DNA from: Styela clava
Taxonomy: Eukaryota > Chordata > Ascidiacea > Stolidobranchia > Styelidae
Assembly: GCF_964204865.1 (NCBI RefSeq)
Contig: NC_135252.1
Span: forward strand, 9,197,383 to 9,261,382
Reading direction: 5' to 3'
DNA length: 64,000 nucleotides
Shown here: positions 16,751 through 40,212 of the stretch, in pieces
Position numbering within the stretch: position 1 is the stretch's first letter
How the letters are laid out: each line of letters starts with the position of its first letter
The notes under the pieces: generated by a model
Databases searched by the model: none
Seen by the model: the letters and a program-made list of their open reading frames with translations, nothing else
What the model was told of the DNA's origin: nothing
Position numbers and translations under genes: made by a program

Positions 16751-16859
16751 ATTCTGATGCAAAACCCCGTTGTAACTTGTGACTCACAAACACATTACGA
16801 ATAGATCAGTTGTATTTTTCATCAAAATCCGTTTTTATAAAATGTCAACTATAATTCTT

Positions 16860-16865
16860 TTTATT
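16860..16865 (-). other. Polyadenylation signal AATAAA for SLC5A copy A
   Basis: The minus strand reads AATAAA about 160 nt downstream of the copy A stop codon, a normal 3' UTR distance. It is the first canonical hexamer I noticed there. Copy B has a changed sequence at the aligned site. Confidence 0.45.
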
Positions 16866-17024
16866 CTTGTCTGTTTAATTGGACTCGTCAATTATCGGGA
16901 TTGACAATAATAAAATTGTTTATGCAATTATTCGTTTTGATTATTCAAAAAAAAACATTGAACGGAGAATAACATCATGCAAGAAGTAATAATTTTCTCA
17001 TTATTTCTCCCTTCACGTGAAGTA

Positions 17025-20000
17025 TTATGCGTAATATGCAAAAAGAAACACCATTGAGGCTAACATGAGCACGCAAGCTATGTTCACAATTAATGCTGGC
17101 CATTTCTTTTCGTTGATATCCAATATTACAGAATCCGGTGAAGGTTGCTTCGAGGTTTGGTCATCAAAACCGCAAAAGAGGTCAAATCCTCTTTTTAGCC
17201 AAGACTTTTGTTTTTCTGTTGAGTCAAAGAAAACAATAAAGAGTTAGTTCATTTTCACAATTGAAAATGTGCTGTTAGGTTTTATTTGAACTGACCCCGA
17301 CACAACATTTGCAAACATTCGCTGCCAAGTACGGTAATTTTACAAAAATTTACCATTGTCTTCTTCCTTGCAGTCTATTCGTGAATTTGTGAAACAAATT
17401 AAAGTATAATCAAGTTTTAAACTATTTCGTCTTGTTCTTACCGGTATTACATGATTTCAACATTATGTAGGTTTGATACAAAATAAATCATTAAAAAAAC
17501 TTGTACTTTTTGAAGGATGTTTTCCATTCCCGTTTGCCATTTCTTCATTATCGCCAACCATCACCTCATTTGGATATCCTCCCTCAGTTTCCTGTTGGTT
17601 AAATTGTTGTAATTGTACTAGTAAGATAAAATCCTAAACATATTGTCATTTTTAATTTACAGTCTCCTTTCAAAAGTTAAAAAAAAAGTAATTCAGAGAT
17701 ATATCAAAAACCCAGTCATACACCATTTTATTCGATACTTTGTCGCCGTCTAACGGCAGAAAAATAATCGTTGATTGATACTTGATTTGTAATAGTATCC
17801 GATATATTTTGCTTTAGTATAAAGCTTCGAAAGCACTGATTTGCCGCGCTTACATCGTTCTGCTGGTTACCGGATCCATGAAGTTCAAAAGTCTGTTCGA
17901 TTGGAATTCTTTTCTTCTTACTCAGTCGGGTCCAATATGTCAATCTGTACAACTATGAAAAATGGACGGTTTCATTTTCACACAGATAAAAAGAAATTTA
18001 TATTACCTTTGCTTATTGAGTTACTTATGAGATGAGAGTTAGAGAGTGCAAATAATATAACCGGTGGTAGGTTCCAATTTTTTTATCAGCCGGTTCCATC
18101 ACAAAAGTCATACTTTTCACCCGGTTCTGTTACAAAAAGTCATTGACAGTAATCAGTAATGCTACCCGGTTCGCTGATACCGGCGAACCGGCCGAATACC
18201 ACCACTGAATATAACATATACCGTACCTACTTTTTCAGACCATAAACTGTGCCTAAATAGTTTTATTGTTTGACCTCGGGAACCCAGAAATCGTTTTGTT
18301 ATGTTATTATGCTGTTGTTCGGAAAAAATCGCTTCCCTCTTCAACTACTGAACTAATTGCTTTCTCGTTGGTTAAAGCTTGTTGTTGTCGCTAAAAGGCC
18401 TTTATGCTTATGAGCAATCATTTCAAACAATATCTGTGGGATGTATGGGATTCGTTTTTCACTCCGAAGTTTTGTGTGATGACGTTATCAAAATTAAAAA
18501 TTGCGTCCCGTGGTTTCGTGATTACATCTCAGTGATTTGGTGGTCAGACTGCCGGTATTGTAAATGATTTCATACTACTTCGTTTTGGCCTTCGAGTCTA
18601 TATATTTTAGCATTACTCTCTTGTTTGAATTCAGTATTACGTAATATTTTGAACACGAAAAACTCACGTGTTCACTGGCAATAGGAGGAGTGCACAAGCT
18701 GACACTAACTTCTATTATCAACGTACAAGCCGTAAGAATCAACGCGAAATGAAGGTAGTGGACCTGGAATTAAAATAATTTTTTCAAAAGCATCGAGTAG
18801 AATTTATTTTTATTAACCTTTACATTATAATTTATACTGAGACGGCAAATTCTGAACCGAACTAAACAATTTTAATCAATTCAAGTTTTGTCTATGTTGC
18901 TACGTCTATGTTGTCTATGTATGCTAACTACTCTAGTCTATGTTAAAGCGGGGAACAAACCTTTGACAGAACCAGTGGTCTTGTATCTTCTTCTCCGCAT
19001 AATGGCGCTGTGTAGACAAAATCCAATATCATTCGGGTTAAACCAATAACCATTCCGATTAACAATGACCAGAAAGCACCCTGAAATATATTTCGCGATT
19101 TGGTTCTGTTTTAGCTGACAAACGGTGGAGCGGAAAATAAGAAATGCAGGTAGAAAGAAGAGAGGGCAAAGTAGGTACAAATCAATCATCATTGACACTA
19201 TCTACATACATACCGGCTCATTGAGTCTTGGCCAAAATACAGCAGTCACAAAAATAGTTGCAATTGGAGGAGCGAGATAACTTGTTATAGCCTGTATATA
19301 GTCAAATAGTTGTCCACTTGCAGCTTCCTGTATGATTGGCACCCAGGCAATGCTCACTCCCACCATGCAAAGAATAAAAACGCTGAGGTATAAAAAAAAA
19401 TTAGTTCAACTAGCATTCTTTGTAATTCAATTACAATTTGAAATAAATCATGGTCACTCAATAAAAAAAAAAAAACTGGCTGCAAAAAGAAATATTGTCA
19501 CGCCAATAACCGAATTGCGTAAGTCATTTTTAGCAGTTTTGAGAAAAACGTAAAAAACTTCCTGATGATATTGTTATGCCATCGAGAGTCAATAATTTGC
19601 CATGGTTCAATTTTTTGATCGTAGCCCGATTTAAGTTAATTTGTATGACGCAGTTAAGGGACGTCATAATAGCGCACTGTGACTTAGGCGGAAATGTGTC
19701 TATGACTAGGGGACATACGCAATTTTGCAACTTTACTATATGCACCAGTCCTGAAAACTGAACATTCCAAAAACGAATGTAATTTTCAGTATCTACAATG
19801 TCTAATCCCCAAAATAGCTAATCAGTTTCAATTACATTATTTTTCATGTTTAAAAATATATATTTCAATAATATAACACGATCTGCACACCCACCGAAAT
19901 AAGACTAAGATTAAATATAAAGAATAAAACAGCAATGCACCCAGTATAAAAGCCAACCTAGGTGAATTGGACTCGGACATTGAGTATCACGCACGCCTTC

Positions 20001-23000
20001 CTATACTGTAGTGTAGTATAAATTGAAATTTATAAGCGTTAAGCTAGAATCCGAGATGCAAAAACTCGAAAATACTTCGCCGAGGGTATTTTGCCTTTGT
20101 GACGTCGCAATAGTCCTGCGGTAACAATGATAATTCATTATGACCAAACAATTGCACAAATGTGCATGTCATACTAAATCTCCATTTTTATGGATTTCGG
20201 AATTCTTAAAATAAAATCTGAGTTGACAGACAGGCATTACATAAATACCTATTTTATAGAAAACTCAAAATCGCCAAAAACGACTTACGCCATTTGGTAT
20301 TGGCGTGACGATATGTTTCTTCCTAAACAGCGCACGTCAATGTGATAATAGGTACTGCTTTTAACCGTACTATTGTTGTAAATGCATATGATATATAAAT
20401 GAACTACAAAACTCTCACAAATACTTTACCGGCCAACAATCATTAATTCTCGTTGAGATGCGTTTTTCCGAATCTTAGTCCAAATATCACAAGTAAATAA
20501 AGTTGAAGAACTGTTGAATACTGATGTTAAAGAAGACATTAAGGCCGAAACCATGGCTGCAAGTAGCAATCCTTTCAAATATAATGTATAATGTATTTTA
20601 CGAGAAAACGAAGTATACCACATATGCCATGGGCTCGCAATCTAATGTTTCTCACAAAAAAATAAATGCAAATACTTCCCAAAACTTGGAAGCAGTTGGC
20701 GCCAATCGCGGCCAGACTCGCTACTCGAAAAATAGAGCAATGCCTAAATATATGGACAAGAAAGCCCAAACGGGATAGTACGGGTATCTAATCTTTTGCA
20801 GTACCGTACGGCAGGGCTACTCAACTATTTTTACCGAAGATCCGCAAACAAAACTTCAAAATTATTCGGCTCCGGACTTTCCAAAATTATATTTCGTCAT
20901 CCTTAACGCGCACTTCCTCGACCGGCTAATGATTATTAGCTAATCAAAATTGCTTATTATTGTGTTATAGATCTTTTCATATATATTCAAAACTATCAAA
21001 GTCATTTTATCAAAAGGAAACTTCAAAAGTGGGTCTAATGATCCAAAATAAAGAATTCCGGTGCGGTGCGGTCCGAAGCAAATAACGCGATCCGTCAGTT
21101 AAGTAGCCCTGCCGTACGGCACTGTAGTCTTCCCAACTTTGGCTGACCAACAGATGGAACCTTCGAAAGGTGCATTTATGCATTTGATGAATTCAATGAT
21201 ATCATTACACACAAAAAAAAACGAATCCGATAGAGCACACAGAAGTTTTTGAACCAAATAAAAATAATAACAATAAAATTTCAAAGCAATTGGTCAGTAG
21301 TGAAAAAGAGAAACGATTTTTATAACAACAATAGAAACAATAAGAAGAAAAATATTAAGAATATCCACAACAACATAATAAAAAATCGATCCATTGGTCA
21401 AAAGAAAAGTGAAAGTTTAAAATTAGATCGATTGCTACCGCCGGTAATATATATATATGTATGAAATGAAATCGAAGTTCCACAACGCTTCATTGTCCCT
21501 AATACATTCCAAAATATTTCAGTAGTTAACAAACTTCACAACTTTACCTTTTGCTCCCGTTGGCATGGTTGCCAGTACAAGTTTAGGATAAGCAACATTG
21601 GAGCAACCGACGGTTGAACCACAATATTTCATACATTCTTCTGGTAGTACACATGCAACTGCATCTAAATTAATATGGTGTTGTCATATTCAATTTTAAC
21701 GTAATGATTCAACTGCATAATCTATTTGAGGTATATATCTGTTTTTGTTGTTAAATAAATGTAACGCAACTTATATACTCGAAATAAAGCAAGTAATATG
21801 GGCTGGCTAAAATAAATTTGTCAACGCACCAACCATCAACTAGTACGAGGCCTAAGAATAATGTTAAGCTACCAAATCACAGTATATATAACAGTAACGT
21901 GAGAGCAGTGGCGTGCCTAGAAGGGGGCGAAGGGGGCAACCGCCCCGGGCAGCACATTGTAGGGGCCAGCAGAACCAAGCTGTAGAGTTTGCGTTATTAC
22001 ACATGCTCTTCTAGATGTGTTTTTATTTAATTAAAAGCTAACAGTATGTGTTCTGGGGTGATGGTTATTCAACAAGGGTTGTTTCCCCGACTCTTGACCC
22101 CGGAAAAATGTTTTCTATATTTTACTATCGCAACCTTTTGGATGCTCATTTTAATAAAACAAACGTTTCTTTCTTACTTGACCTTTATTTGATATATTCT
22201 CGTGTATAACGACATCTATAATCTGTTTATCACCCAAATTATTTTAGAAGTTAGGTATAAGGGGCAGCATTATCAGAAACTCGCCCCGGGCAGCAGACTA
22301 GTTTGGCACGCCCCTGCGTGAGAGTGGGATGTATCAGACCAGTGGCGTAGCATCCACGCCCGCAACCCCCGCGGTCGCGGGAGGGCCCACAGCGCAAAGG
22401 GGCACAAGCGGTTAGAATTTAGAAATTTAAGCCGCAAACCAAAAGCTGCAGTGCAAAACAGGTAATGCACATCTTATACCGTTGAGTCGTCGATTTTCAG
22501 CGTCATGTGGTTTGATCGCACCGGCAAAATTACGAATGCTGTCAGAATGATGTCGAAAGCAAAACCTCTCAGTGGCGCACAGAAAAGTTGAAGAGGTAGA
22601 ACGTATGAAAAAAATTATATAGTAACCATAACCAAAAAAACGGCAAATTTTAGGTTACCATTGCTTTTTTATAGCGACATGTAATGCATTTTGATGAAAT
22701 AAAATAAGCGTTGTTTAAGCTTATGTCCGAGAGTTTTTAAGGTCATTTCGACGAAATATTTTTGCGGGGGGGGGGGCACGAGAGTCTTGTTACGCCATTG
22801 TATCAGACATTAGATAGGTCTCTGTAACAGAGACTGCTTTTGTCATTGACATAGGCTATTTGAGGCAACTAACGTAAGTTTTGTCGACCAAGCAATGGTT
22901 GTTAACACATTGATAATATCGTGCCGCATTGCCACAGACCAATAACTTCACTTACCAGTTAATACGATTCTGCTGACCATTCCAACCATTACAATTGTAT

Positions 23001-25979
23001 ACATTGGCATTATTTTAATAAACCCTGCCAAAACACAACCTCCTTTTGCATGTGTCAAGTTCTTTGCTGCCAACGTTCTTTGAACAAGAACCTGGAATGG
23101 AATATTGTTGCATTAGAGATAACACTAGTGAATATTTTATGAAATAAACTAAAATTGCATGTACTTTACATACTAATTTACGAACACCGACTCGAAGCAT
23201 CGAAAGAATAAACATCCGTAGCGTAGGGTGTTAATATAAACCGAGGTGATATGTTTTCGAGAGTTAAAACATGAAATACTTTTCACATTCCCATTTTATG
23301 TCGGATATTAACATATTATGTTACAATGAAATATCACTATTGCTTAGAATGGAGTGCAAATGACACTAAAGAATTTCATGCTATTTTTGCGTTTTCACGT
23401 AGATGACAAAATCTCAAATATTATTCTGAACACAAACCTGATCTGTGCACCAGTACCACGTAGCTAATATTGTTAAACCGAAAGTTAGTCCAGGCCAAGG
23501 AAGATCTCCTGTAACTGGATCTCTAAAAACGCTGAAAGAATCCTCCCTCGGTTCACCGCATGTTGTGTTTGCTGGCCTCAATCTTGGTACTGCTTGCATG
23601 TATTTTGTTTCCAGTTGATCATATCCCCCAATGCTTTCAAACGCTGACAGAGAAGAATTTTTGCGAATAAAAAAATATTGAAGGCTCAATCTTCAACCTA
23701 GCATTTGTGTTATGACAATCCAATAAAATATAGGTAAATACTTACACAATACCATCATGATTACTGATCCAATAGTTATGATTGAAGTTTGAGCAGTATC
23801 TGTATATATGACAGCAGCTAATCCTCCAGTCACTGTATATAATCCAGTGATCAACAGAAGGAGAACCATAGATAAATAAATATTCCATCCAAGAGCTTCT
23901 TGAATAAAGATTGCTCCGGAATATAAGTCGGCCTAGAGTGGATGAATATAATGTTTAATTATGTGTTGTTGAAATAAATCAAAATATTTATATCACTCAA
24001 TATGAAAAGGGCAATTGCGCATTTCAATACCTAAGAACAATATGGGGGGAAATTGAGCAAATCGAGAAATTTGATTACGGATCAGAAGAATTAACTTCAT
24101 ACGAAGAAGGACAATTGAGAATATATAAATCTAAATTTACTGTAGACAGACTGCATCCTTAATAATAGTCTTACGAAACGAAAATGCGCTTTTTGTTTTT
24201 GTTTTCATGTATTTTGTAAAAACCTACCGATACTCTCACTAGAATATAAAGCAACACCGACAACACTGATAAATACACTTGAATTCTTTGGCCTCCAAAT
24301 CTTGCCTCAAGATATTCGGGCATTGTGACGACTCCAGCAGCAATATAAACTGGTGCAAATATCCAACCCAAGAAGAAGAGCGTAAGCATGGCCTGGTAAA
24401 AATTATAATCCATGTTTATAATATAATCACTGGTGACATTGACCTTGCCCCATTTTGAGAAAATTAAAACAAAATTTAAGAAAATATTTATAAAGTGCGT
24501 GAATATCCCCAAAAAAATATGGTAAAAAGACAACAAACACGTAATCTGTGCTTTTATTATTATTGTCATTGTCTAGTCTAGGTTGTCAAAACGCAAACGT
24601 ATATGATGAAGAACTAAGCCAATTTAGAGCATTGTCGCAGAAAGTTATTTGTTCTTTATTTATTAGGAATTGGGAACTTTGTAAAGGCATACATGACTTG
24701 CATGAGGATCCCCCCATATAGGCGACATGCATGCCAACGACGCCCGAAACTTAGATATTTTAGGCATATATAGCGTAGTATTGGCATCCGGCAAACGCCA
24801 AAATTAGCTGAATGATTGAAGCAGCGCTTAAAAAGTTATAACGCCGTGTATATACTTCTAAATGAAAATTCGCAAATATTTAGTTTGTTCTCCCATCTCT
24901 GTAGACTTTCCATTCTAATAATTACAGAATTGACGGAGAATCGAAAAAAATTATGTTAAGTTATGCAAACAATGTTATACTCGAAAGAAGGGATTGTGTT
25001 TAATGGGTAAATATTTAACAATTAAAATTTCAACAAAAGGATTCACATTCCATTCGAATGCACCGACTGCAATTCCGCCGACCACTCCTGTACCAGCCAG
25101 TCCGACGAAATCACCACTTCCAATATTGCTGCTGAAAAGAGATGCTCCGACAGGAAACCAAGTTATGTGTCTCCCAGCGAGAAAGAATCCGTCAACGTTT
25201 CCACGATTCGTGCTGCACATCGCCTGCGAGTAGAAATTTATTCAGTTATGTTATTATATATATAGTCAATTATGAATCTGAGTGTTGTTCACACGCTTTT
25301 GTACCTATGTTAAAATTATCCATACTCTATATCAGGGCTACTCAACTATTTTCATCGAAGATCCGCACACAAAACTTCAAAATTATTTGGGTCCGGTCTT
25401 TCCAGAAATTATATTTTGGCATCCTTATTCGCACACTTCCTCGACTGGCTAATGATTAAACTGGCTAATGAATCAATATTGACTATTAGTGTGTTATAGT
25501 TCTTTACATATATATTCAAAACTATGAAAGTCATTTTATAAAAGGAAACTTCAAATGTGGGGCTAATGATCCAAAATAAAGAATTAGGTGCGGTCCGAAT
25601 CAAATACGCGAAATGTCCGGATTCGGTCCGCGGTCCGCCAGTTGAGTAGCCCTGCTCTATATTTTACTTACTGAGCACAATACGCAGAGCTATATTATAT
25701 TTTACGATTGCCTATATAAATGAAGGAGAAAAATGCGCACATTTTGCTAGTAAAAAAATACAAATTTCCATTGTAACTATGGCCGTAAAATGAAAATATC
25801 TTAAAAATTTACCAGATTATAACAATCGAAGTTGAACAATTACTCACCCATATCCCAACAGCTAATATGAATGCAAAATAGACACCGATAACAACGAAAT
25901 CCCATGTTTCTAAATTTGCATCTGGCAGGAGTGCTGCCGTCGTCTGGTCCGAGTAACTTGCTGTCGTTATTGAGGCCAT
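17025..25979 (-). CDS. SLC5A sodium/glucose-cotransporter-like paralogue A, 14 coding exons
   Basis: Exons: 25979-25848, 25223-25047, 24392-24228, 23932-23746, 23643-23438, 23091-22956, 21664-21548, 20571-20430, 19382-19214, 19080-18961, 18763-18668, 17952-17854, 17591-17507, 17215-17025. Phases fit and give 673 aa (human SGLT1 is 664). Sodium:solute symporter marks include GFFLAGR (56-62), [13 protein letters not shown] (76-88), [25 protein letters not shown] (283-289) and SGQLFDYIQ (443-451). The expected role is Na+-coupled sugar or polyol uptake through the plasma membrane with 14 membrane helices. Sugar-site residues by SGLT1 alignment: N77, E101, Y284, W285, K315 and Q451 are kept, His83 is Asp82 and Thr287 is Ala281. 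Copy-specific changes are SYLAPP (Gly to Ala), VLVQ and NSSST. The cytoplasmic loop exon 13 is 30 nt shorter than in B. Several introns carry transposons. SGLT1/2 versus SGLT4/5 class is unresolved. Confidence 0.94.
18062..18207. mobile_element. hAT-like MITE in intron 12... (between exons 11 and 12) of copy A, 146 bp
   Basis: Bounded by exact 8-bp duplications AATATAAC (18054-18061 and 18208-18215). Termini read CGGTGGTAGG and CACCACTG, with repeated CCGGTTC motifs inside. The element sits between exons 12 (17952) and 11 (18668). Copy B has an uninterrupted sequence at the matching place. Confidence 0.8.
19478..20332. mobile_element. DNA transposon with ~64-bp terminal inverted repeats in copy A intron between exons 8 and 9
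   Basis: The left end (19478-19545, containing ATTGTCACGCCAATAACCG) pairs with the reverse complement of the right end (20263-20332, containing ATCGTCACGCCAATACC). Matching continues through GCGTAAGTC and TTTTGAG. The copy B intron at this place is only 77 bp, so most of this ~1 kb intron is inserted. There is no long reading frame, so it is non-autonomous. Exact ends and target duplication were not resolved. Confidence 0.75.
20811..21111. mobile_element. hAT-like MITE, 301 bp, family 'CAGGGCTACTCAACTA'
   Basis: Inverted termini CAGGGCTACTCAACTA and TAAGTAGCCCTG, with exact 8-bp target duplication CCGTACGG at 20803-20810 and 21112-21119. It lies in the intron between exons 7 and 8 of copy A. 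The same family recurs at 25333-25654. Copy B keeps an empty site near 34805. Confidence 0.92.
21906..22316. mobile_element. hAT-like MITE, 411 bp
   Basis: Starts CAGTGGCGTGCC and ends GGCACGCCCCTG, with exact 8-bp duplications CGTGAGAG (21898-21905 and 22317-22324). The GC-rich subterminal block GCCCCGGGCAGCA occurs at both ends. It lies in the intron between exons 6 and 7 of copy A. Copy B reads straight through CGTGAGAGTGGGATG near 35525. Confidence 0.92.
22340..22800. mobile_element. hAT-like MITE, 461 bp
   Basis: Starts CAGTGGCGTAGC and ends GTTACGCCATTG, with exact 8-bp duplications TATCAGAC (22332-22339 and 22801-22808). It contains a run of about 12 G near the right end. It lies only 24 bp right of the previous element in the same intron. 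The site is empty in copy B. Confidence 0.92.
25333..25654. mobile_element. hAT-like MITE, 322 bp, second copy of the 'CAGGGCTACTCAACTA' family
   Basis: Inverted termini CAGGGCTACTCAACTA and AGTTGAGTAGCCCTG, with exact 8-bp duplications CTCTATAT (25325-25332 and 25655-25662). It sits in intron 1 of copy A. Copy B has the unoccupied site near 38097. Confidence 0.92.
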
Positions 25980-26009
25980 TTGTACACTATATTAAAGCTT
26001 TACCCAAAA

Positions 26010-27571
26010 CAAAAGTCGAGAACCCATGGCTCGCGACGCGCGATGTAAGTTTCGAATATTTATTTTTTTCGAATCACAATGTTCCGATTCGAATCTGATT
26101 CTATTTAGTATATCATCATATTACCGTTAACTTTCTTCAAACTGCACACACGCACATACAAAAAATTCCACCGGTGCCAAAAAGAAGGCTTTGTGGGCAC
26201 ATTGTTATTAATATCGACACAAAATTTGTATTTTTTATGTTCCATTCAAGTTGTTGATTTTATTATTTAATTGCACCCAGTAAATGTTTCATCATTTATT
26301 TAAGATTTATTCAAATCAAACAATTCAGATATAAGCGTGCCTAATTTTTAGTCGTAAGTGTTGATAATTCTTCAAGAAACCTTGGCAAGTATTAATGTAT
26401 TATCCAAACAGCGAAAAATAAATATTCTCAAACTATGAATGTTACATGACTGCTCAAACTTCAGTATCTAACGTACAATTTCCTCCAAATGCGATTCTTC
26501 GCTTGTTTAGAATTAGAACAAATTGAGCATTTGGATGCTACTGCTACCATTGCAAATAAAATTCATCACACTACTCTTGGAGTGAGACAATAACTTTTGC
26601 ATACTGCAGAAGTTATTGTATAGGATCGTTTGTCCGTCCACCCACGCTAGTGTTTCGCGGAACACAGTTTAGGGAACGCTGTTCTAGATGAACGTTTATT
26701 ATATTAAATTATCTGTGAAACTTCTTAATATTTTAAGTAGTCGAACAAAATAGAGCGAAACGATTGCTGCTACCGATATGAAATATAACAACTCTGGGAG
26801 TGTTAGGACTTTGGAAAGCTGTAAACGTAAAGTAACGAGACATCGCCTCTGCGTCGTGCAATTGCCCTGTGTTATATAAATGCAATTCTTTTCGAAATAA
26901 AATCAAGTCTCATTTTCCTAAATTGCTTCGAATTGATGTTGATTCGAATCGCTTCGAAATTCTGAAACTTACATCCCTACTCGCGAGCCATATATATATG
27001 GCTCTTTTGGTGACGGCATATGGCTCCCAGAAAAATCCAATATTCTAAGGCTAAGCTTCTATTACTACCAGATTTCTCTTTTATGGACAAATTTGGCAGA
27101 AAAATTGCTAATACGTTTGGGAACGAGCACTCACCGCATGCCTATGTTATGCGAGAAAATCAGATAGGCATTGTGACAAAACTATAGGATTCTGAAATAT
27201 ATTTTGTGATATCACGTTACGTTAGAGTCGCGATGCAATAAAGGAATAAAAGTATTCCGTCAGTTTGTATTGTATATTTGTAATATTTAGATTGGACTAG
27301 TAGGTTAATTTTTAAAGCACTACGGAGAGAGCCCAAAAGAAAGAAAGGTGATGAGTATCGTGGATTTCAACCTGTGCTGCATGTGAGCAGTCGTTCAAAT
27401 GCCCTCAGCGACAACATGCAGCACCAGAAGGCATATTAATTGTATATTGACATTATATGTTTTAACTGTTGAGTAGAAGTTTAAGACATGATTAGGTGAT
27501 GAAAAATATTATATGGCTCGCAACGAAATGCAATTGAAAATAGGTATCTTTCAAGACTCTCCCGACCCCTG
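26010..27571. mobile_element. Nested hAT-like insertion, ~1.56 kb, upstream of copy A
   Basis: The outer ends read CAAAAGTCGAGAACCC and GTCTTG...CGACCCCTG. The flanks ACCCAAAA (26002-26009) and ACCTAAAA (27572-27579) match at 7 of 8 positions. An inner element (about 26042-26975) has inverted ends GATGTAAGTTTC / GAAACTTACATC and interrupts a CTCGCGA-rich sequence. The interval is missing from the homologous copy B flank near 38440. No transposase reading frame is evident. Confidence 0.7.
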
Positions 27572-28814
27572 ACCTAAAATAATCATTGAATAATCTCTCA
27601 AAACAAGGGTATATCTATGCTCTTCTAAACGTAGTCAATAGGCTATACTAAACCTGAGTGAAAGTCACGGTCATCTATTCTACACTAAACATCATACGAA
27701 ACGTTTTTCCAATTTCATTCATTCTCTTTTCATCTCATAGTTTCTCCAATTTAAGTATAACATTGATTAACCGCAAAAGAATTCCCGTCAAAGGACGGGA
27801 GAATCTTTTCTCCAAAAATGCACTAGGCCAGAGCCAAAATTCACATAAACGTGATTAGATTAAATAATCAATGAAATATAATTTTAGGCAAATTACATTT
27901 CCAAGTTCGTCATCGGGATATTTTTGTAACAGACGTTTTTGACGGCCCCGCGCGTGTTAAAAATATGTATAATTGGATACTACGAAAGCTGCAGCGTTTT
28001 ATTTTACACAAGTCATACTACGCCTCAACTTTTTGCCATCATTCTTCGGTCAACGTTTATTAACACTTGGGATTATCCCTCTCGTGCTGGTCATTAGCTG
28101 AAGCCGATTTCGCAACTGAACCTAAACCATAAAAAGCATAATAAACTGTGAAACTCAATTGACTGAATAGCTGATGAGGGATTTGTCAGTATAAAAGTTC
28201 TATATGATACGCTCAATTGAACAGTTAAAAATTTGCGACTTTTTGTTGCCGGCTTTTGTGGCATGCGATCTCTTTCAATCTTGTGACCCAAATAAAACTT
28301 GCTCGAAAGACAATATGATTAAAAGTCGGAAAAGCACTGATCAAACAATTTTTTAGGACCAGCTCACTCATATAAAATATACTAAACATAAACCACGTTA
28401 GTTCATCGAATTCTCATGGTTTTGAAATAGATTCTACATTCATTGTTTGTCCATTCAATATTCAAACAAGTATATATGAAATGTTCAGATAAGGTTCGGT
28501 CTAGAATGGTCAAATCACAGTTACAATGATAAAAACACTTTTCGTCAATGATAATGTTTTATTGTATTCCAGTAAAATTAAACTTACTTTTTAAAAGCGC
28601 AATGTTCATGCCAAATAACCTCATCTCAGATGCACAATGCATAACCAATCCCCCGCAATGCAAATATTTCCATCGAAAAATTCAATGAAATATTATGTAA
28701 CATCATCCAGAAAGAAAACATTGGATACGTTTGATTCCGACTCATGAAATTCCAAATTGGTGAAACGTATTTTCTAATGCATATTGCCGAATACATTTCG
28801 ACCACGAGCTTTTT
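27572..28814. other. 5' flank of copy A, homologous to the copy B 5' flank
   Basis: Sequence from about 27585 to 28790 aligns over most of its length with 38450-39560, for example AGTTTCTCCAATTTAAGTA and AAAAGTTCTATATGATACGC. The retained similarity reflects the tandem duplication and may contain the transporter promoter. No reading frame in it is shared intact between the copies. Confidence 0.6.
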
Positions 28815-30966
28815 GGATCTCCGCCATAGGAGACCCTTATTATTTATCAGTCGTTCTGTCTGTTGGATCTCCGCTTCTAGGAGACCCTCATTATCAGTCG
28901 TTCTGTCTGTGTATCTGTCTGTCTGTCTGTCTGTCTGTTTGGATGTAGCGTCGAACGGCTGGACCAATCTGGATGAAATTTTCCATGTGGGTTATCCTGT
29001 CACCCTAGTATTATGCGTTTCGTAGAAAGTCTGGATATGGGTTTCGTTTCCATGGTAACAACGAAAAACGCGCCGATCGTTATGAAATTTCAATTTATGA
29101 CAATTTATCGCTGTTTTCTCGCCAACCAAGTCGAAAATTAAAAATCCAAGAACGCTACCTTCCGCATAGCAAAATACTCTTTCAAATAAGTTATCTTTGG
29201 TCTCGATACTCTATAAACTGGAGGAGCCTCAGGGATTTTAGTGAAGATTATTTTTTAATTTTCAACCCCAATATACCAGTCACGCGAGTAAGACTACGAA
29301 ATGCTCAGCGTTTGAAATGAACTCAGTGGAACGCGCAGCGTTAAATATTAACTGGCGTTTTAAGTAGTGTCTCCTATTATCCGTTAGTAAACTGAAATGA
29401 TGCGGGCCTCAAGCAATGGCGGAGATCCAACTGGGCGCCTACCGGCTTGTCTGTATATCTGTCTGTGTGTCCAAGCTGTAGAGTCTTAGCGGCTAGTAGA
29501 CTAATCTGTATGAAATTTCACACGTAGGTTATCCCGTCACCCTAGTTATGTGCGTTTCACCGGGAGTCCGGACTGATGTTCCGTTTCCAGGGCAGCAGCA
29601 AAAAACGCACCGATCGTTGAAAATATCTCCATTTTCTCATACATTTTGGCCATATTCTCGTCAAACAAGTCGAATATTAAAATTCCGAGAATGCTACCCT
29701 TCGCGGAAGAACTCTTTCTAACTAGTCGTCTTTCATCTGGATAGTCCATAAACTAAGAAAGCCTTAGGGATTTTGGTGGACGTGTTTTTATTATTAGCCA
29801 CAGCATAACCATGCACACGGATACCGATGAGCCGCACAGCACTTAAAATGAGCTGGCAATTCTGTTACACTTTTCTCGGTACAATGGCGTCTCCGTATTA
29901 CCCTTTAGTAAACTGAAATTACGCGGGCCTCAAGCAATGGCGAAGATTCATATTGGGCGCCTGAGAGTATACTTCGTTTAAACATTGGGTAGTTAACTGT
30001 TACTTTATATTTTTCTCTCAATAATTATTTTGCCGGAATGGGTGGTGGCTGACTTTGATGACCTTTGGTCGTATCGCCATCTCCCAGTCTATACCAAAAT
30101 AAATGCTGTGTAATTTATTATTTTGAAATTTATTTGTATTTTGGTTGACAAAAATAATAAGCTCTCTCTCTCTCTCTCTCTCTACCGGCTTGCTTTAATC
30201 ATTAGCTACAGTCTATCATCACGCGAGTATGTCTACGAAATACGCAGCGCTTAATTTGAACTGGCAGTTTCGGTAACCTCCTCATTAAACCGCACTGCCG
30301 TTATAGATCCGAAGTATAGAGCCAAAGTTTGTGTGAATGGTAACAGGTTGACTGAGAGCGGGCCTTAACTATCCTGATCCTGGGCGCCTACCGGCTTGTT
30401 GGATCTCCGCTATAGGAGACCCCTATTATCGATCGTTCCGTTTGTCTGTCTGTGTGTCCATTTCTGGCGTCTTAACGGCTGGGCCGATCTACATGAAATT
30501 TCACACGCTGGTTTTCCTGTTACCCTGGTAATGTGCGTTTTATAGAAAGTTTGGATTGAAGTCTCGTTTCCACGGCGACAACTATAAAACGCGCCGACCG
30601 TAATGAAGTTTTCCATTTTTTCACAATTTAACGCCGTTTTCTCGTTGACCATGTCGAAAATTGATATTCCAAGAACGCTACCTTCTGCAGAAGAAAATAT
30701 TATATGGAACAAGTCGTCTTTCGTCTCGATACTCCATGAACTTGAGAAGCTTTTAGAAGATTTTAGTGAACAATACTTCAATGTCTAATCATTAGGTACA
30801 GTAATTATATCATAACGCGAGCATGTCTACAAAACGCACAGGTTTTAAATGAACTGGCAGTTTCGTTAAACTGCTCTCTTAATCGCGCTGCCGTTATTGA
30901 TCCGCAAGTTTCTGTGGATGGTAACCGGTTGCTTGAGTGCGGTCCTTCAACTATCAGCGGAGATCC
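28815..30966. repeat. Cluster of 'GGATCTCCGC' interspersed repeat units
   Basis: At least two full units (28815-29428 and 30401-30966) start GGATCTCCGC and end GCGGAGATCC, so they have 10-bp inverted termini. A degenerate unit (about 29439-29967) and a fragment (about 30184-30396) lie between them. Each unit has a CTGTCTGTCTG tract near its start and internal blocks such as AAAACGCGCCGA and AGAACGCTACC. Units are separated by GGGCGCCTACCGGCTTGT. No coding capacity. A further copy in reverse orientation is at 45037-45607. Confidence 0.8.
30162..30182. repeat. (CT)n microsatellite
   Basis: About ten CT dinucleotides in a row inside the GGATCTCCGC repeat cluster. Confidence 0.95.
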
Positions 30967-31600
30967 CGGGCGCCTACCGGCTTGTTTTCATATGTTTGAG
31001 TGGGTTTTTACGGCTTTTAACTTTGCCTGGTTGTGAAGTTGTCAAATTTTGCAGTCAGCACTCATTTGAAAAGAGATTTATGACGATTTTGGCGATGTTA
31101 CGGAAAAAACTTTGAAAATTCAAAATAATTTCAAGTTTTTTTTTTCAGCGTTACAACATAAAAACGAAATTCTGATATTCATAAAATGTCCAGAACGTTC
31201 TTAGCAACCCATGCGGCATTTGGAAATGAAGAAAAGTCGTTCAAATTAGAACCGTTCTAAATTTGAACGACTTTGAAAATCCGGTATATTCATCTATGAC
31301 AGTGGTTCTTGAATTTTTTGCAAGCGCGACCCAAATCTGAGTTTTATGAATACTCGCGACCCAAGTCTAAATATCGCAAAATGTATTTTTAATGTTAATA
31401 CTGTTTGACTCAAATACAGACAACTATTTATTAGAAACAGTCCATTGACTCAGTGAGATTGATGCAACTGAAATTTTCTTTTCATTATATCTTATAATAT
31501 AACAACAATAGTTGTAGGAGAATATTGCCATAACGTGATTAACAGATTATAAAATTTCACAAGTTTTGAAAATTACACTTCATTAAGTCTATTGTTGAAT

Positions 31601-31798
31601 TTATGCGTAAAATCCGAAAAGGAACACCATGGTGGCCAACATGATAGCACCAGCTATATTTATAATAGCAGCAGGCCATTTTTCTTCATTGATATCCATC
31701 AATTATTTAATCTGAGGGTGGCTGCTGAGATGTTTTCGTCTCTTCTTCTAAGCCGCAGAAAAGGTCAAATCCTTTCCTAAACCAGGATTTTTCTTTTT
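31601..31798 (-). pseudogene. Broken duplicate of the SLC5A copy C terminal exon
   Basis: Aligns over its whole length with exon 14 of copy C (40406-40213), including the [15 protein letters not shown] start and the FLFGFYA stop end. It is 198 nt against 194 nt. A 4-nt insertion shifts the frame and an in-frame TAA at 31707-31709 cuts off the last membrane helix. An AG acceptor is still present. No other copy C exon accompanies it. It lies about 290 bp downstream of the intact copy B stop codon and marks the right end of the A duplication unit. Not expected to be used, although splicing into it from copy B has not been excluded. Confidence 0.88.
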
Positions 31799-32088
31799 CT
31801 ATGGATAAATTAATGATGCAAAACCCTGTTGTAACTTGTAACTCACAAACACATTACGAATAGATCAGTTGTATTTATATCAAAATTAGTTTTTATAAAA
31901 TGTTCAACCATAATTGTATTATTCTTGTGTGTCTTCAAATTGACTGTCAATTATAGGGATTGACAATATTAAAATTGCTTATGCAATTATCCGTTTTGAT
32001 TATTCAAAAAAGAAACATTGAAATAAGAATACCATCATGTAGAAATTTATAATTTCCTCATTATTTCTCATATTTTCTCCGTAAGGTA

Positions 32089-35000
32089 TTATGCGTAATA
32101 TGCAAAAAGGAACACCATTGTGGCTAACATGAGCACGCAAGCTATGTTTACAATTAATGCCGGCCATTTCTTTTCGTTGATATCCAATATTACAGAATCC
32201 GGTGAGGGTTGCTTTGAGGTTTGGTCATCAAAACCGCAAAAGAGGTCAAATCCTCTTTTTAGCCAAGACTTTTGTTTTTCTGTTGAGCCAAAGAAAACGA
32301 TAGTTAGTTCATTTTCACAATTGAAAATGTGCTGTTAGGTTTAATTTGAACCGACCCCGACACAAAATTGGCAAAAATTCGCTGCTAAGTACGGTAAATT
32401 TACAATAATTTACCATTGTCACCTCCCTCGCAGTCTATTCGTGAATTTGTAAGACAAATTAAGGTATGATCAAGTTCTAAAACATTTTGTCTTGTTTTTA
32501 CCAGTATTACATGATTTCAACACTATGTAGGTTTGATACAAAATAAATCTTTAAAAAAACTTGTACTTTGTGGAGGATGGCTTTCGTGAGTTTCAATAAC
32601 TACAGCATGTTTTCCATTCTCATTTGTCATTTCCTCATTATCGCTAACCATCGCCGCATTTGGGTATCCTCCTTCTGTTTCCTGTTGGTTAAATTGTAGT
32701 AATAGTGCTAGTAACCTAAAATCCTAAACATTATGCTATTTTTATTTTATGGTCTCCTCTCATAAAATTCAGAAAAAGTAATTTAGAGGACATATCAATA
32801 ATCCACTCAAAAAACAATTTCATCCTATACTTTGTCGCCATCTAACGCCAGAAAAACGATCGTCAGTTTGATACTTATTTTGAAAAGAATATTCGATATC
32901 TTTTGTGGTGTATATATATAAAGATAATAAATCCATTGAGATAATCCTCTATTTTAGCTTTAGTACACCGCTTCAAAAACAATAATTCGCCGCGCTTACA
33001 TCGTTCTGCTGAGTACCGGATCCATGAAGTTCAAAAGTCTGTTCGATTGGAATTCTTTTCTTCTTGCTCAGTCGGGTCCAAAATGTCAATCTGTACAACT
33101 ATGAAAATCTTGACGATTCAATTTTTTATAAAGATAAAAATAAGTTTATATTTCCCATTCCTATTGAGTTACTTAGGAGAAGAGCGTTACAGAGTGTAAT
33201 TATTATACCAAATACCTCCCTTTTTCAGACCAAAAAAGGTCACGAAAAACTATGAATATATATTAAATCGTTTTCTTATTTGACACGGAGTGAACCGAAG
33301 GATTGTTTTGTGATGTTAATATGTTGCTGTTGGAAAAAAATCGCTTCTATCTTCAATTACTGGAATAATTTCATCAAAATTTTCGTTGGTTAAAGCTTTT
33401 TGTTGTCTCTAAAGGGCTTTTATTTATTCAAAAATATCTGTGGAGTATAGGGGATTCGTTCTTCACTTCTTCACGAAGTTTTGTGTGATGACGTTATCCA
33501 AATTAAAAATTGCGTCCCTTAGTTCCGTGATTACATCTTAGAGATCTGATGGTCAGACTACCGGTAATGTAAAAGATTCCATACTACTTCATTTTGACTT
33601 TCGTGTCCATACATTTTAGCATTACTCTTTTGTTTGAATTCAGTAATATATATGTAATGTACTAAGCAAGAAAAACTCACGTGTTCACTGGCAATAGGGG
33701 GAGTGCACAAACTAACACTAACTGCTACTATCAACGTGCAACCCGTAAGAATCAACGCGAAATAAAGATAGTGGACCTGAAATAAAATAACTATTTTGAA
33801 AGCATCATCAACAACGAGAAGAATTTATTTTTATTAACCTATCGTACATTATAATTTATACTGAAATTGCAGTTTTGCACCGAACTAAACAATTTTAATC
33901 AATTTGAATTATGTCTATGTTACTAGTACTACTCTAATCGATGTTACAGCGGGTCGCAAACCTTTGACACAACTAGTGGTCTTGTATCTTCTTCTCCGCA
34001 TAATGGCGCTGTGTAGACAAAATCCAATATCATTCGCGTTATACCAATAATCATTCCGATTAACAATGACCAGAAAGCACCCTGAAAAAGACTTCACTTT
34101 TTGGTTGTATTCAGCGGAAAAACGTGAACGGAAAATAAGAAGGAGAAGAGGGAAGAGCAATTGAGAATCAATTATCCCCAAATAACACCACATACATACA
34201 TACCGGCTCATTAAGCCTTGGCCAAAATACAGCAGTCACAAAGATGGTTGCAATTGGAGGACCGAGATAGCTTGTTATAGCCTGTATATAGTCAAATAGT
34301 TGTCCACTTGCAGCTTCCTGTATGATTGGCACCCAGGCAATGCTCACTCCCACCATGCCAAGAATAAACACACTGTGATATAGAAACAACTTTTGTTGTA
34401 AATGTATATAATATATAAATGGCCTACAAAACTCTCACAAATACCTTACCGGCCAACAATCATTAATTCACGTTGAGATGCGTTTTTTCGAATCTTTGTC
34501 CAAATATCACAGGTAAATAAAGTGGAAGCACTGTTGAATACTGATGTCAAAGAAGACATAAAAGCCGCAACCATGGCTGCTAGTAGCAATCCTTTCAAAT
34601 ATAATGTATAATATATTTTACGAGAAAAGTAAGAATACCACATATGCCATGGGCTCGAAATCTAATGTTTCTCACAAAAAATAAATGAAACTTCCCAAAA
34701 CTTTGCCAATCGCGACCAGAGTGCTACTCGAAAAATAGACCAATGCATAAATATATGGACACGAAAGCCCTAACGAAGTAGTACGGTTATCTAATCGTTT
34801 GCAGTACCGTGGTCTTCCCGACGTTGGCTGACTACCAGATCGTAACAAACGCAAGCTGGAACCTTCGAAAGGTGCGTTTATTTTTGATGACTTCATTACA
34901 CACAGAAAAAAACGAATCCGATAGAGCCCACAGAAGTTTTTGAACCAAATAAAAATAATAACAACAACAAAAATCTTCAACCACAGAAAATTTCAAAGCA

Positions 35001-38000
35001 ATTGGTCTGTAGTGAAAAAGAGAAACGATTTTTATAACAACAATATAAAGTTCAAGTATAAAATTAGATCGATTGCTAGCGCCGGTAATCTGTATGAAAT
35101 GATATCGAAGTTCCACAACGCTTCATTGTCCCCAATACATTTCAAAATATTTCAGTAGTTAACAAACTTTACAACTTTACCTTTTGCTCCCGTTGGCATG
35201 GTTGCCAGTACAAGCTTAGGATAAGCAACATTGGAGCAACCGACGGTTGAACCACAATATTTCATACATTCTTCTGGTAGTACACATGCAACTGCATCTA
35301 AATTAATAGGGTGTTGTCTTATTTAATTTTAACGTAATGATTCAACTCCATAATCTATTTGAGGTATATATCTGTTTTTGTAGTTAAGTAAATGTAACGC
35401 AACTTATATACTCGAAATAAAGCAAGTAATAGGGGCTGGCTGAAATGTTTGTTAACGCACTAACCATCAACTAGTACAAGGCCTAAGAATAATGCTAAGC
35501 TACCAAGTTACAGTATAACAGTAACGTGAGAGTGGGATGTACCAGACATTAGATAGGTCTCTGTAACAGGGACTGCTTATGTCATTGACATAGGCTATTT
35601 GAGGCAAATAACGTGAGTTTTGTCGACCAAGCAATGGTTGTTAACACATTGATAATATCGTGCCGCATTGCCACAGACCAATAACTTCACTTACCAGTTA
35701 ATACGATTCTGCTGACCATTCCAACCATTACAATTGTATACATTGGCATTATTTTAATAAACCCTGCCAAAACACAACCTCCTTTTGCATGTGACAAGTT
35801 CTTTGCTGCCAACGTTCTTTGAACAATGACCTGGAATGGAATATTGGTGCATTAGAGATAACACTAGTGAGAATTTCATGAAATAAACTAAAATTGCATG
35901 TACTCTAAATACTAATTTACAAACACCGACTCGAAGCATCGAATGAATAAATATTGTTAGCGTAGGTTGTTAGTACAAACCAAGGTGATATGTTTTCAAG
36001 GAGTCGAACCATAAAATAATTTTTACATTTTGTGTCGAATATTAACATAATTATGTTGCAATGAAATATTATTATTGCTTAGAATGGAGTGCAAATGGCA
36101 CTAAAGAATTGTATGCTATTTTCACGTAGATCACAAAATCTCAAATATTATTCTGAACACAGACCTGATCTGTGCACCAGTACCACGTAGCTAATATTGT
36201 TAAACCGAAAGTTAGTCCAGGCCAAGGAAGATCTCCTGTAACTGGATCTCTAAAAACGCTGAAAGAATCCTCCCTCGGTTCACCGCATGTTGTGTTTGCT
36301 GGCCTCAATCTTGGTACTGCTTGCATGTATTTTGTTTCCAGTTGATCATATCCCCCAATGCTTTCAAACGCTGATAGAGAAGAAATTTTGCGAATAAAAA
36401 ATATTGGAGGCTCAATCTAGCATTTGTGTTATGACAACCCAATAAAATACATGTAGATAATTATAAAATACTTACACAATGCCATCATGATTACTGATCC
36501 AATAGTTATGATTAAAGTTTGAGCAGTGTCTGTATATATGACAGCAGCTAATCCTCCAGTCACTGTATATAATCCAGTGATCAACAGAAGGAGAACCATA
36601 GATAAATAAATATTCCATCCAAGAGCTTCTTGAATAAAGATTGCTCCGGAATATAAGTCGGCCTAAAGTGAATGAATGAAATATTTAATTATCTGTTGTT
36701 AAAATAAATTAAAATAATTATATCCCTCAAAACTATGAAAAGGGTAATTGCGCATTTTAATACCCTGCATGTTCAATACGAACAATATGGGCAAAATTGA
36801 GAAATTTGATTACGGATCAGAAGGATTAACTTCATACGAAGAAAGAAGGACAATAGAAAATATATAAATCTAGATTTACTGTAGACAGACTACATTCTTA
36901 AAAATAGTCTTACAAAACAAAAATGCTCTTTATTCAATTCCAAATTACTTCTTGTTCTTTGTAAATGTATTTTTTGTTTTCATGAATTTGTTATATCTTA
37001 CCGATACTTTCGTTAGAATATAAAGCAACATCGACAACACTGATAAATACACTTGAATTCTTTGGCCTCCAAATCTTGCCTCAAGATATTCGGGCATTGT
37101 GACGACTCCAGCAGCAATATAAACTGGAGCAAATATCCAACCCAAGAAGAAGAGTGTAAGCATAGCCTGGTAAAAATTATAATCCAAGTTCAATATTCAA
37201 TCACTGGTGACATTGACCTTGCCCCATTTTGAGAAAATTGAGACAAAATTTGAGAAAATATTTTATAAAGTGCGTGAATACGCCCAATAAATGTGGCAAA
37301 AAGACAACAAACACGTAATCTGTGCCTTTGGCCTTGTCTAGTCTAAGTTGTCCAAACGCAAACGTATATGATGATGAACTGCGCCAATTTAGAGCAGTGT
37401 CGTAGAAAGTTATTTTTTTTTTATATTAAATAGGAATTGAGAACTTTGTAAAGGCATACATGACTTGCATGAGGACTCTCAAATATAGGCGACATGCATG
37501 CCAACGACGCCCGAAACCTAAATATTTTAGGTACATATAGCGTAATATTAGCATCCGGCAAACGCCATAATGAGCTGATTGACTGAAGCAGCGCGTGGAA
37601 AGTTATAACGTCGTGCATATACTTCTAAATAAAAATTCGCAAATATTTAGTCTGTTCTTTCATCTCTAAACTTTTCATTCTAATGATTACGGAATTTACC
37701 GAGAATCGAAAAAATTATGTTAAGTTATACTAATAATGTTATACTCGAAAGAAGGGATTGTGTTTACTGGGTAACTTATATTTAAAAACTGAAATTTCAA
37801 CAAAAGGATTCACATTCCATTCGAATGCACCGACTGCAATTCCGCCGACCACTCCTGTTCCAGCCAATCCAACGAAACTACCACTTCCAATATTGCTGCT
37901 GAAAAGAGATGCTCCGACAGGAAACCAGGTTATGTGTCTTCCAGCGAGAAAGAATCCGTCAACGTTTCCACGATTCGTGCTGCACATCGCCTGCGAGCAG

Positions 38001-38422
38001 AAATTTAATATTCAGGTATGTTATTATATAGTCAATTATGAATCTGAGTTTGAAGTGTTGTTCACGCGCTTCTGTTCCTTGTTAAAATTATTCATACTCT
38101 TTAATTTACTTGGCACAATACGCAAAGCTATATTATATTTTACGATTGCCGATATAAATTAAGGAGAGAAATGCGCACATTTTGCTAGCAAAAAATTACA
38201 AATTTCTTTTGTAAGTAAGGCCGTAAAATTGAAATATGTTAAAACTTTACCAAATATATTCATAACAATCAAAGTTCAACTATTACCCACCCATATCCCA
38301 ACAGCTAATATGAATGCGAAATAGACACCGATAACAACGAAATCCCATGTTTCTAAATTTGCATCTGGCAGGAGTGCTGCCGTCGTCTGGTCCGAGTAAC
38401 TTGCTGTCGACATTGAAGCCAT
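32089..38422 (-). CDS. SLC5A sodium/glucose-cotransporter-like paralogue B, 14 coding exons
   Basis: Exons: 38422-38291, 37990-37814, 37166-37002, 36662-36476, 36370-36165, 35830-35695, 35297-35181, 34591-34450, 34372-34204, 34081-33962, 33776-33681, 33098-33000, 32681-32567, 32279-32089. Phases fit and give 683 aa. The architecture matches copy A exon for exon, except exon 13 (115 versus 85 nt), which adds about ten residues to the cytoplasmic loop before the last helix. Exon 5 is identical to A over all 206 nt. Sugar-site residues by SGLT1 alignment: N77, E101, Y284, W285, K315 and Q451 are conserved, His83 is Ser82 and Thr287 is Ala281. The Na+-site region [15 protein letters not shown] is intact. 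Introns are compact and free of recognisable insertions. Likely a Na+-driven sugar or polyol symporter in the plasma membrane. The exact substrate is unknown. Confidence 0.95.
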
Positions 38423-40212
38423 TTGTACAGTATATTAAGCTTTATCTGAAATTAGCATTTAATAATCACTCAAAACAAGGGTTTATTGTAGGTTCATATT
38501 CTAAATGTAGTCAATATACTAAAACTGAGTAAAGGTCACGGTCATCTAAACTGAACATCATACCAAACATGTTTCTGTTTTTATTTATTTGCTCAACTCA
38601 TAGTTTCTCCAATTTAAGTAACATTAATTAACCGCAAAAGAATTTCCTCCCAAAAAACGGAGAATCTTTTTTATAAAAATGCGCTCGACCCGAGCCATCT
38701 ATCTTCGAAATATCTTTCGAAAAGTTTCCGACAGCCGCACGCGTAGGTAAAATCTTTATAATTGGATACTACGAAAGCTGCAACGTTTTGTTTTACACAA
38801 GTCGTACTACGCCTCAAATATTCGAAAAAACGTTTATTAACAGTTGAAATAACCCTCTGATAGGTTGCTGAAACCACTGATTGCGCAACTGAACATAAAC
38901 CATGAAAAGCATTTATACAAAGCATATATTTCTAAGCATTCAATTGACTAAAATGCTGATGTGGGATTTGTCAGTATAAAAGTTCTATATGATACGCTCA
39001 ATTGAACAGTTAAACAAAATTTGCGACTATTTGTTGTCGGCTTTTGTGGCATACGATCTCATTTAATCTTGTGACCCAAATAAACTTTGCTCAAACGAAG
39101 GCCAATATAATTGAAAGTTGGAAAAGCATTGATCAAACAACATTATAGGACCAGCTCACTCATATAAAATATACTAAACTCTTCAAATTTTACATTAGTA
39201 CCTCGAATTTGCATGGTTTTCAAGTGGATTCTACATTTATTGTCTGTCCATTTTAACCAAGTAGGAAATGTTCAAATAAGGGTCGGATAGAATGGCATAA
39301 TGACAGATATATAATGATAAAGACACTTTTGCCAATGATGATGTTTTATTGTATTCTAGTAAAATTGAACTCACTTTTTAAAAGCGCACCGTTCATATTA
39401 AATACCTTGGTCTCAGCTCTGCACAATGCATAACCAATCCCTCTCAATGCAAATATTTCTGTCGAAAATGTAAAGAATTCAATAAAATATGGATGTAACA
39501 CCATGCAGGAAAGCAAATATTGGATACGTTTAGTCCAATTCGTGAAATTCCAAATTTGTGCAATGTAGATTCGAGTGCATGTTTTGAAAGTATCTTAGTT
39601 TGCCAAGTACTTTCCGACCTTGAAAAATTTTATCAACGAACGTCTATCATTAGGTATACTGCGATCACAATAGTTTCATCGATAAATCTATTTAGGGTAA
39701 CATGCTGTATTTCAGTGGTTGATAATTCGCGCATTGAATGGGTTTTTCGTTTCAAATTTTGCCGACATTTCACAAAAGATATGTGACTATTTCGGCGATG
39801 CTACTAAAAAAATAAAAACACCTTTGGTTATATTCTCTTGTTCTTTATCAACGTTACAACGTATCAAAAAGTCCTTCAAATTTAATCCGTTTGAAATTTT
39901 AATAAATTTCGAAATTCAAAACCTATTATATTCAACTATGATAACACGGTCCTGACTTCTTTTCCAGCGAAAATATTTCCTTTCCGACATAGAAGACTAC
40001 AAAACGTTGACTATTTTTTCTTACAAATACAAAACTAAAGAAACACTTTCAAACAATTTAAATTTTATTGGTAGGATTGATTACAACGACGTCGAACTAG
40101 CATACGACAGCCATAACGATCGTTGTGAGTAAATATCGCAATGACGTGATTAACAGATTATAAAATTCCATGGGTTTTGGAAATTCACACTTCATTAGGT
40201 CCATTGTTGAAT
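38423..40212. other. 5' flank of copy B, up to the 3' end of copy C
   Basis: 1.8 kb between two transporter genes. The part to about 39560 is homologous to the copy A flank (27585-28790). The part from about 39700 to 40212 resembles 31000-31600, left of the broken terminal exon. No gene is supported. It should carry the copy B promoter and the copy C 3' UTR. Confidence 0.6.
40064..40069 (-). other. Polyadenylation signal AATAAA for SLC5A copy C
   Basis: The minus strand reads AATAAA about 144 nt after the copy C stop codon, a plausible 3' end signal. Confidence 0.5.

Follow-up and report, generated by a model that had tools for sequence, protein, structure and literature searches.

Three tandem SGLT-type SLC5 genes of Styela clava with Asp, Ser or His at the position of His83 of human SGLT1

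Position 83 in described SGLTs

SGLT1 and SGLT2 (SLC5A1/SLC5A2) carry a histidine in their ligand site, H83 in SGLT1 and H80 in SGLT2, and published data on this position are given here from excerpts of the cited papers. In docked SGLT1 models, the sugar part of phlorizin is hydrogen-bonded by H83 among other residues and the inhibitor ring stacks on H83 (PMC6286348). In cryo-EM structures of SGLT2, H80 forms a bond with the glucose moiety of gliflozins (PMC10803289). In the structure of SGLT1 with LX2761, H83 sandwiches the inhibitor ring and is absent from the sugar-ring contacts listed in the excerpt (PMC9616851), which suggests that a change at this position may affect inhibitors more than sugars.

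SGLT4 and SGLT5 (SLC5A9/SLC5A10) have a leucine at the site of His83 (PMC12605011, PMC10439028). According to an excerpted review, the substrate range of SGLT4 can be ascribed to H83L, T287A and Y290C (PMC12605011). A triple mutant of SGLT5, in which the SGLT1/2 residues were restored at this site and at two neighbours, was reported to have a higher affinity for glucose and galactose and a lower affinity for mannose, fructose and 1,5-anhydromannitol; the single mutants each had a reduced transport and, in the excerpt, give no simple picture (PMC10439028). Taken together, the inhibitor structures of SGLTs and the data on SGLT4/5 make position 83 a published specificity determinant, the published mutants being Leu or His and not Asp or Ser. 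Among the literature matches listed, there was no H83D, H83S, H83C or H80A mutant of an SGLT (a series of this kind may exist in subscription journals), and no title was evidently about a tandem array of SLC5 genes in an ascidian, a tunicate or any other invertebrate.

Human SGLT3 (SLC5A4), which is a glucose-gated sensor, has E457 as an additional pocket acid, together with Leu156 and Ala287.

An array of three SGLT-type genes and its pocket residues

The window, i.e. the whole stretch of 64,000 nucleotides of Styela clava DNA that was analysed (34.5% G+C, no N), carries three SGLT-type SLC5 genes on its minus strand: copy A (17025–25979; 673 aa), copy B (32089–38422; 683 aa) and copy C (40213–47349; 682 aa). 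All three are intact, with an open frame and 14 exons whose phases match and which are separated by GT-AG introns, the splice sites having been placed by hand from sequence and homology rather than from transcripts. The three proteins match the Pfam SSF profile (PF00474) at E ≤ 0.001 (best 2.2e-146). For copy A (E 6e-138), the match, which is the one displayed in full, reaches 460.5 bits for a curated cut-off of 22.8 and covers the whole profile (1–406 of 406). A tblastn search with C gave no further SLC5 exon in the rest of the window or in the 10 kb flanking it on each side. The comparison with solved structures (SGLT1/2 versus NIS, SMVT, SMCT1 and CHT1), which concerns copy A only, as a draft join, gave SGLT1 (E 5e-232) and SGLT2 (E 3e-207) as the nearest ones, the matches to SMVT (2.5e-14) and NIS (9e-14) being far weaker. 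Over 562 aligned residues, 340 are identical to human SGLT1 in A, 347 in B and 364 in C (60–65%). By sequence, A, B and C belong to the sugar branch (SGLT) of SLC5, and they are predicted to carry out sodium-coupled uptake of sugars.

Residue 82 of these proteins is encoded by exon 2 (in copy A, 25047–25223 on the minus strand, residues 45–103). Its codon is GAT (Asp) in copy A (25110–25112), AGT (Ser) in copy B (37877–37879) and CAT (His) in copy C (46901–46903). The minus-strand gene models confirm these three states, which had been proposed in the initial annotation, and the alignment to the solved chain of human SGLT1 bears out the equivalence of residue 82 with His83, within the motif SNIGSGHF. 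The count of about seven A/B differences in exon 2 (177 nt, 59 codons) can be made exact: there are seven, two of them adjacent and located in codon 82 and the other five (codons 61, 65, 84, 86 and 88) synonymous, as also proposed. Residue 82 is one of the 11 aligned sites at which A, B and C all differ from one another.

A search for exon 2 in the 376.6-Mb genome, in which 13 of 13 candidates were scored and whose counts are lower bounds, gave 13 matches at at least 10 loci, i.e. the three genes of the array and seven others. The residue at the His83 site is His at six of these seven loci (L031, L032, L034, L035, L040 and L041) and Ser at the remaining one (L038, C16:15363406–15363525). In the latter, Ser comes with other changes of the motif, which reads SNISSISI, so that a Ser at this site does not necessarily always mean the same. 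C has CAT at this codon, and so have E (L031) and F (L032), the two nearest outgroup paralogues. Together with the His found at six of the seven loci outside the array, this shows that His is the ancestral state of the family at this site and that A and B are exceptions. Whether the common ancestor of A and B had kept His depends on the model used: the reconstruction favours Asn with one ratio (Asn 0.66, Asp 0.27, His 0.01) or with free branch ratios (Asn 0.68, Asp 0.23, His 0.02) and His with the branch-site model (His 0.53, Asn 0.29, Asp 0.13). As two of the models give an Asn/Asp ancestor, Asp and Ser may each be one step away from it; because of this model dependence, it is not claimed that A and B lost His independently.

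The other residues of the ligand site were compared over 21 positions taken from the cited SGLT papers. A and B differ at two of them, position 83 (Asp/Ser) and position 156, which is Val in A but Thr in the other four genes compared (B, C, E and F); the remaining 19 are common to A, B and C. The second difference lies in exon 3 of copy A (24228–24392, minus strand), where A reads Val155-Arg156 (24234–24239) at the place of the Thr-Lys of B, C and human SGLT1 (T156 and K157). N78, F101, E102, Y290, W291, K321, Q457 and D204 are unchanged in the three copies. As in SGLT1 and SGLT2, the sugar contacts N78, E102, Y290, W291, K321 and Q457 are kept in A, B and C, and they are identical in E and F as well. 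The same likeness holds for the sodium-site residues D204, S392, S393 and T395. Besides the replacement of His83 in A and B, the differences from SGLT1 and SGLT2 are T156 to Val in A and, in all three copies, A76 to Ser, S389 to Ala and T287 to Ala. The last one is also found in E and F, and rat SGLT1 likewise carries Ala287, as given in Table 2 of PMC12809628; Ala287 alone therefore leaves glucose transport possible.

The His that characterizes the glucose-type SGLT1/2 at position 83 is thus found in C, and A and B have Asp and Ser instead. A and B resemble SGLT4 and SGLT5 in having a replaced His83, and SGLT4 in having Ala287. Unlike these transporters, they have Asp or Ser and not Leu, and they retain both Y290, where SGLT4 has Cys, and N78/I79, where SGLT5 has Ser/Glu. 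Tyr290 and Asn78/Ile79 are present in C too, and none of the features of the mannose type (Leu83, Cys290 of SGLT4, Ser/Glu at 78/79 of SGLT5) occurs in A, B or C. In a paralogue piece found elsewhere in the genome (L033, C8:6573000–6582999), the Q457 site holds Asn (LFVYINVV) and WYWC is replaced by LYFC. For a wider tally, a contig scan for bacterial relatives with two 7-residue patterns gave 43 matches and zero confirmed relatives.

Divergence of copies A and B

On balance, we favour the view that the array consists of three intact SGLT-type SLC5 genes, of which the duplicates A and B have had the pocket His replaced by Asp and Ser, with an altered recognition of sugars or inhibitors. The following scheme can be proposed. 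One duplication gave rise to A and B, and the His equivalent to His83 of human SGLT1 has been changed to Asp in A and to Ser in B. This His stacks on inhibitor rings and is presumed to reach hydroxyls of the sugar on its C1/C2 side; the published set of sugar contacts is otherwise kept in A and B, with the exception of Thr287 (Ala in all three copies). A and B would have a shifted preference around C1/C2 of the sugar together with a weaker binding of phlorizin and gliflozins, and C would keep an SGLT1-like pocket. Judging from the residues involved, the changes at residue 82 are likely to have a functional effect in A and B; they probably represent ordinary divergence after duplication that would alter the recognition of sugars or inhibitors.

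If the three proteins differ in their substrates, the array would amount to a natural mutagenesis series (His, Ser and Asp) at one specificity residue of SGLTs and would test the contribution of position 83, which the SGLT5 single mutants left open. The Asp of copy A has no counterpart at the His83 site among the other proteins examined here, and it would add a new charge to the pocket of an SGLT. That A and B have an altered profile of substrates or inhibitors appears likely enough to merit an assay.

The A and B proteins are about 5% apart (641 of 673 residues identical). Of the 81 changes between their 673 codon pairs, 47 are synonymous and 34 nonsynonymous; the pairwise dN/dS of 0.22 indicates that the pair is still constrained. 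Three codons (82, 155 and 578) carry two changes; since a random placement of the 81 changes would give 4.4 such codons, the double hit at codon 82 is not unusual.

These figures could be accounted for by a relaxed constraint after the duplication, under which A as a redundant copy, and the A/B stem to a smaller degree, would have tolerated changes, some of which fall in the pocket. We give this explanation a little less than an even chance. The ratio w is 0.43–0.66 on the branch leading to A versus 0.05 in the background, and a free ratio for A gains 8.9 lnL units over a single one. The differences are also unevenly shared, with 16 of the 32 differing residues derived in A, 5 in B and 11 ambiguous, and with polarised base changes of 21 nonsynonymous to 12 synonymous in A versus 7 to 14 in B (Fisher p = 0.05). 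Moreover, exon 13 is 30 bases shorter in A than in B, and most of the random-placement tests show nothing unusual. However, A is still open, with GT-AG introns and w below 1, A and B do not differ at all over the 68 codons of exon 5, and B has Ser82 although this copy evolves slowly (w 0.08).

Another explanation is positive selection for a new sugar specificity in the pocket of A and B, codons 82 and 155 being the main targets; selection on specificity had been suggested in the initial annotation from the concentration of A/B changes at codon 82, a contact residue. This explanation was examined by a branch-site model (own implementation, GY94, F3x4) on five in-genome paralogues and 473 codons of exons 2–10, exons 1 and 11–14 being excluded because models of E and F were incomplete for this set of exons. 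When A and B form the foreground, the joint top rank goes to codons 82 and 155, with a posterior of 0.997 each (naive posteriors, which ignore parameter error) and w2 is 5.7. With a single foreground, codon 82 comes first for B and codon 155 for A. Both codons belong to the ligand site as published or listed, and they are the sole A/B codons with two changes in exons 2–10. In addition, the three double-hit codons exceed the 0.8 expected from a random placement of the 34 nonsynonymous changes (P of 3 or more = 0.04).

Against this, the likelihood ratio tests (chi-square, 1 df, uncorrected for three tests) give p = 0.079 for A+B, 0.050 for B and 0.106 for A, none of which falls below 0.05, values that would be halved under a 50:50 mixture null and that come from a tree with long deeper branches, in which the F branch lies at its upper bound and w2 for B alone ran to 259. 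The A+B signal depends on the two codons: p rises to 0.58 without codon 82, to 0.42 without codon 155 and to 1.0 without both, and two-change codons such as these can be mimicked by single multi-nucleotide mutations. Nor is the pocket significantly enriched in A/B differences. A and B differ at nine of the 264 positions on which C, E, F and human SGLT1 agree, two of them in the pocket (P = 0.11; 0.15 and 0.09 with the other backgrounds), and the chance that one or more hits fall on 8 or 9 contact sites is 0.27 or 0.36. What stands of the proposed selection on specificity is the location of codon 82 in the pocket, the published role of this position, the ancestral His and the joint top rank of the codon in the branch-site test on the in-genome paralogues. 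The concentration itself is not clearly unusual (3 double-hit codons versus 4.4), and the same test does not clearly reject neutrality (p = 0.050–0.106). Positive selection in A and B is possible, and a relaxed constraint fits the data about as well; as the main explanation, we regard selection as rather unlikely.

A more distant proposal is that copy A is an SGLT with a charged pocket, acting as a sugar- or proton-gated sensor conductance or as a carrier of cationic or unusual sugars, B (Ser) and C (His) being cotransporters with different sugar ranges. Copy A would then combine a carboxylate at the place of His83, beside the kept E102 and K321, with Ala287 and with a hydrophobic residue at the T156 site, Val where human SGLT3 has Leu. 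It resembles human SGLT3 in having an acid in the pocket (residue 82), Val155 and Ala281 (sites 83, 156 and 287). Unlike SGLT3, copy A keeps Gln457, the residue reported to decide between sensor and transporter, and Gln stands at the place of the sensor-type Glu457 in B and C as well. This proposal is considered improbable.

Duplicated units and other features of the window

Copies A and B arose from one tandem duplication, apparently an old one, and are very unlikely to be two alleles. The unit carrying A (16755–31813) and its tandem counterpart carrying B (31814–40421), both on the minus strand, meet at a junction located at 31813/31814. Each unit begins 15 bases ahead of the last exon of C, spans the intergenic stretch and ends about 270 bases past the end of the gene. 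As the unit starts just before the last exon of C, the A unit holds a spare tail of C (31504–31813, minus strand, 87.5% identical to 40115–40421), with a frame-broken last exon (31604–31799) that lies downstream of B and marks the junction. The two units share 77–78% identity in the intergenic stretch, 87.5% in the tail of C and 80–92% in the gene blocks, and the coding dS is 0.10. That A and B could be two alleles mis-assembled in tandem, as might be suspected from a unit that begins in the last intron of C and stops just past the gene like overlapping haplotype contigs, is very hard to reconcile with these identities and dS, with the broken frame of the C tail in the A unit, with a window devoid of N and hence of a scaffold gap at the junction, and with the genome search for exon 2 (at least 10 loci), which gave no extra copy of A or B.

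The synonymous divergence between A and B is uneven, being low in exons 4–7 (0 to 0.03) and high in exons 8, 11 and 13 (0.25–0.36). This pattern may result from a partial gene conversion (20430–23932 and 34450–36662).

Several repeats were observed in and around the genes. The introns of copy A contain two repeats that are 87.5% identical (20812–21067 and 25333–25594). The segment 25333–25654 starts with CAGGGCTACTCAACT and ends with AGTTGAGTAGCCCTG, and resembles an element with terminal inverted repeats. A dispersed repeat family (74–77% identity, some members being inverted) is present upstream of A (28861–30988) and inside C (45015–45609).

Outside the array, two open frames (2716–3630 and 7095–7586) have weak matches to rhodopsin-type receptors (E 0.14 and 0.011, under the curated cut-off) and may belong to a single split gene, as its end and its start. 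A NAB-type corepressor gene (Pfam SAM_NCD1, E 2.4e-27) has an exon at 58369–58737 on the minus strand.
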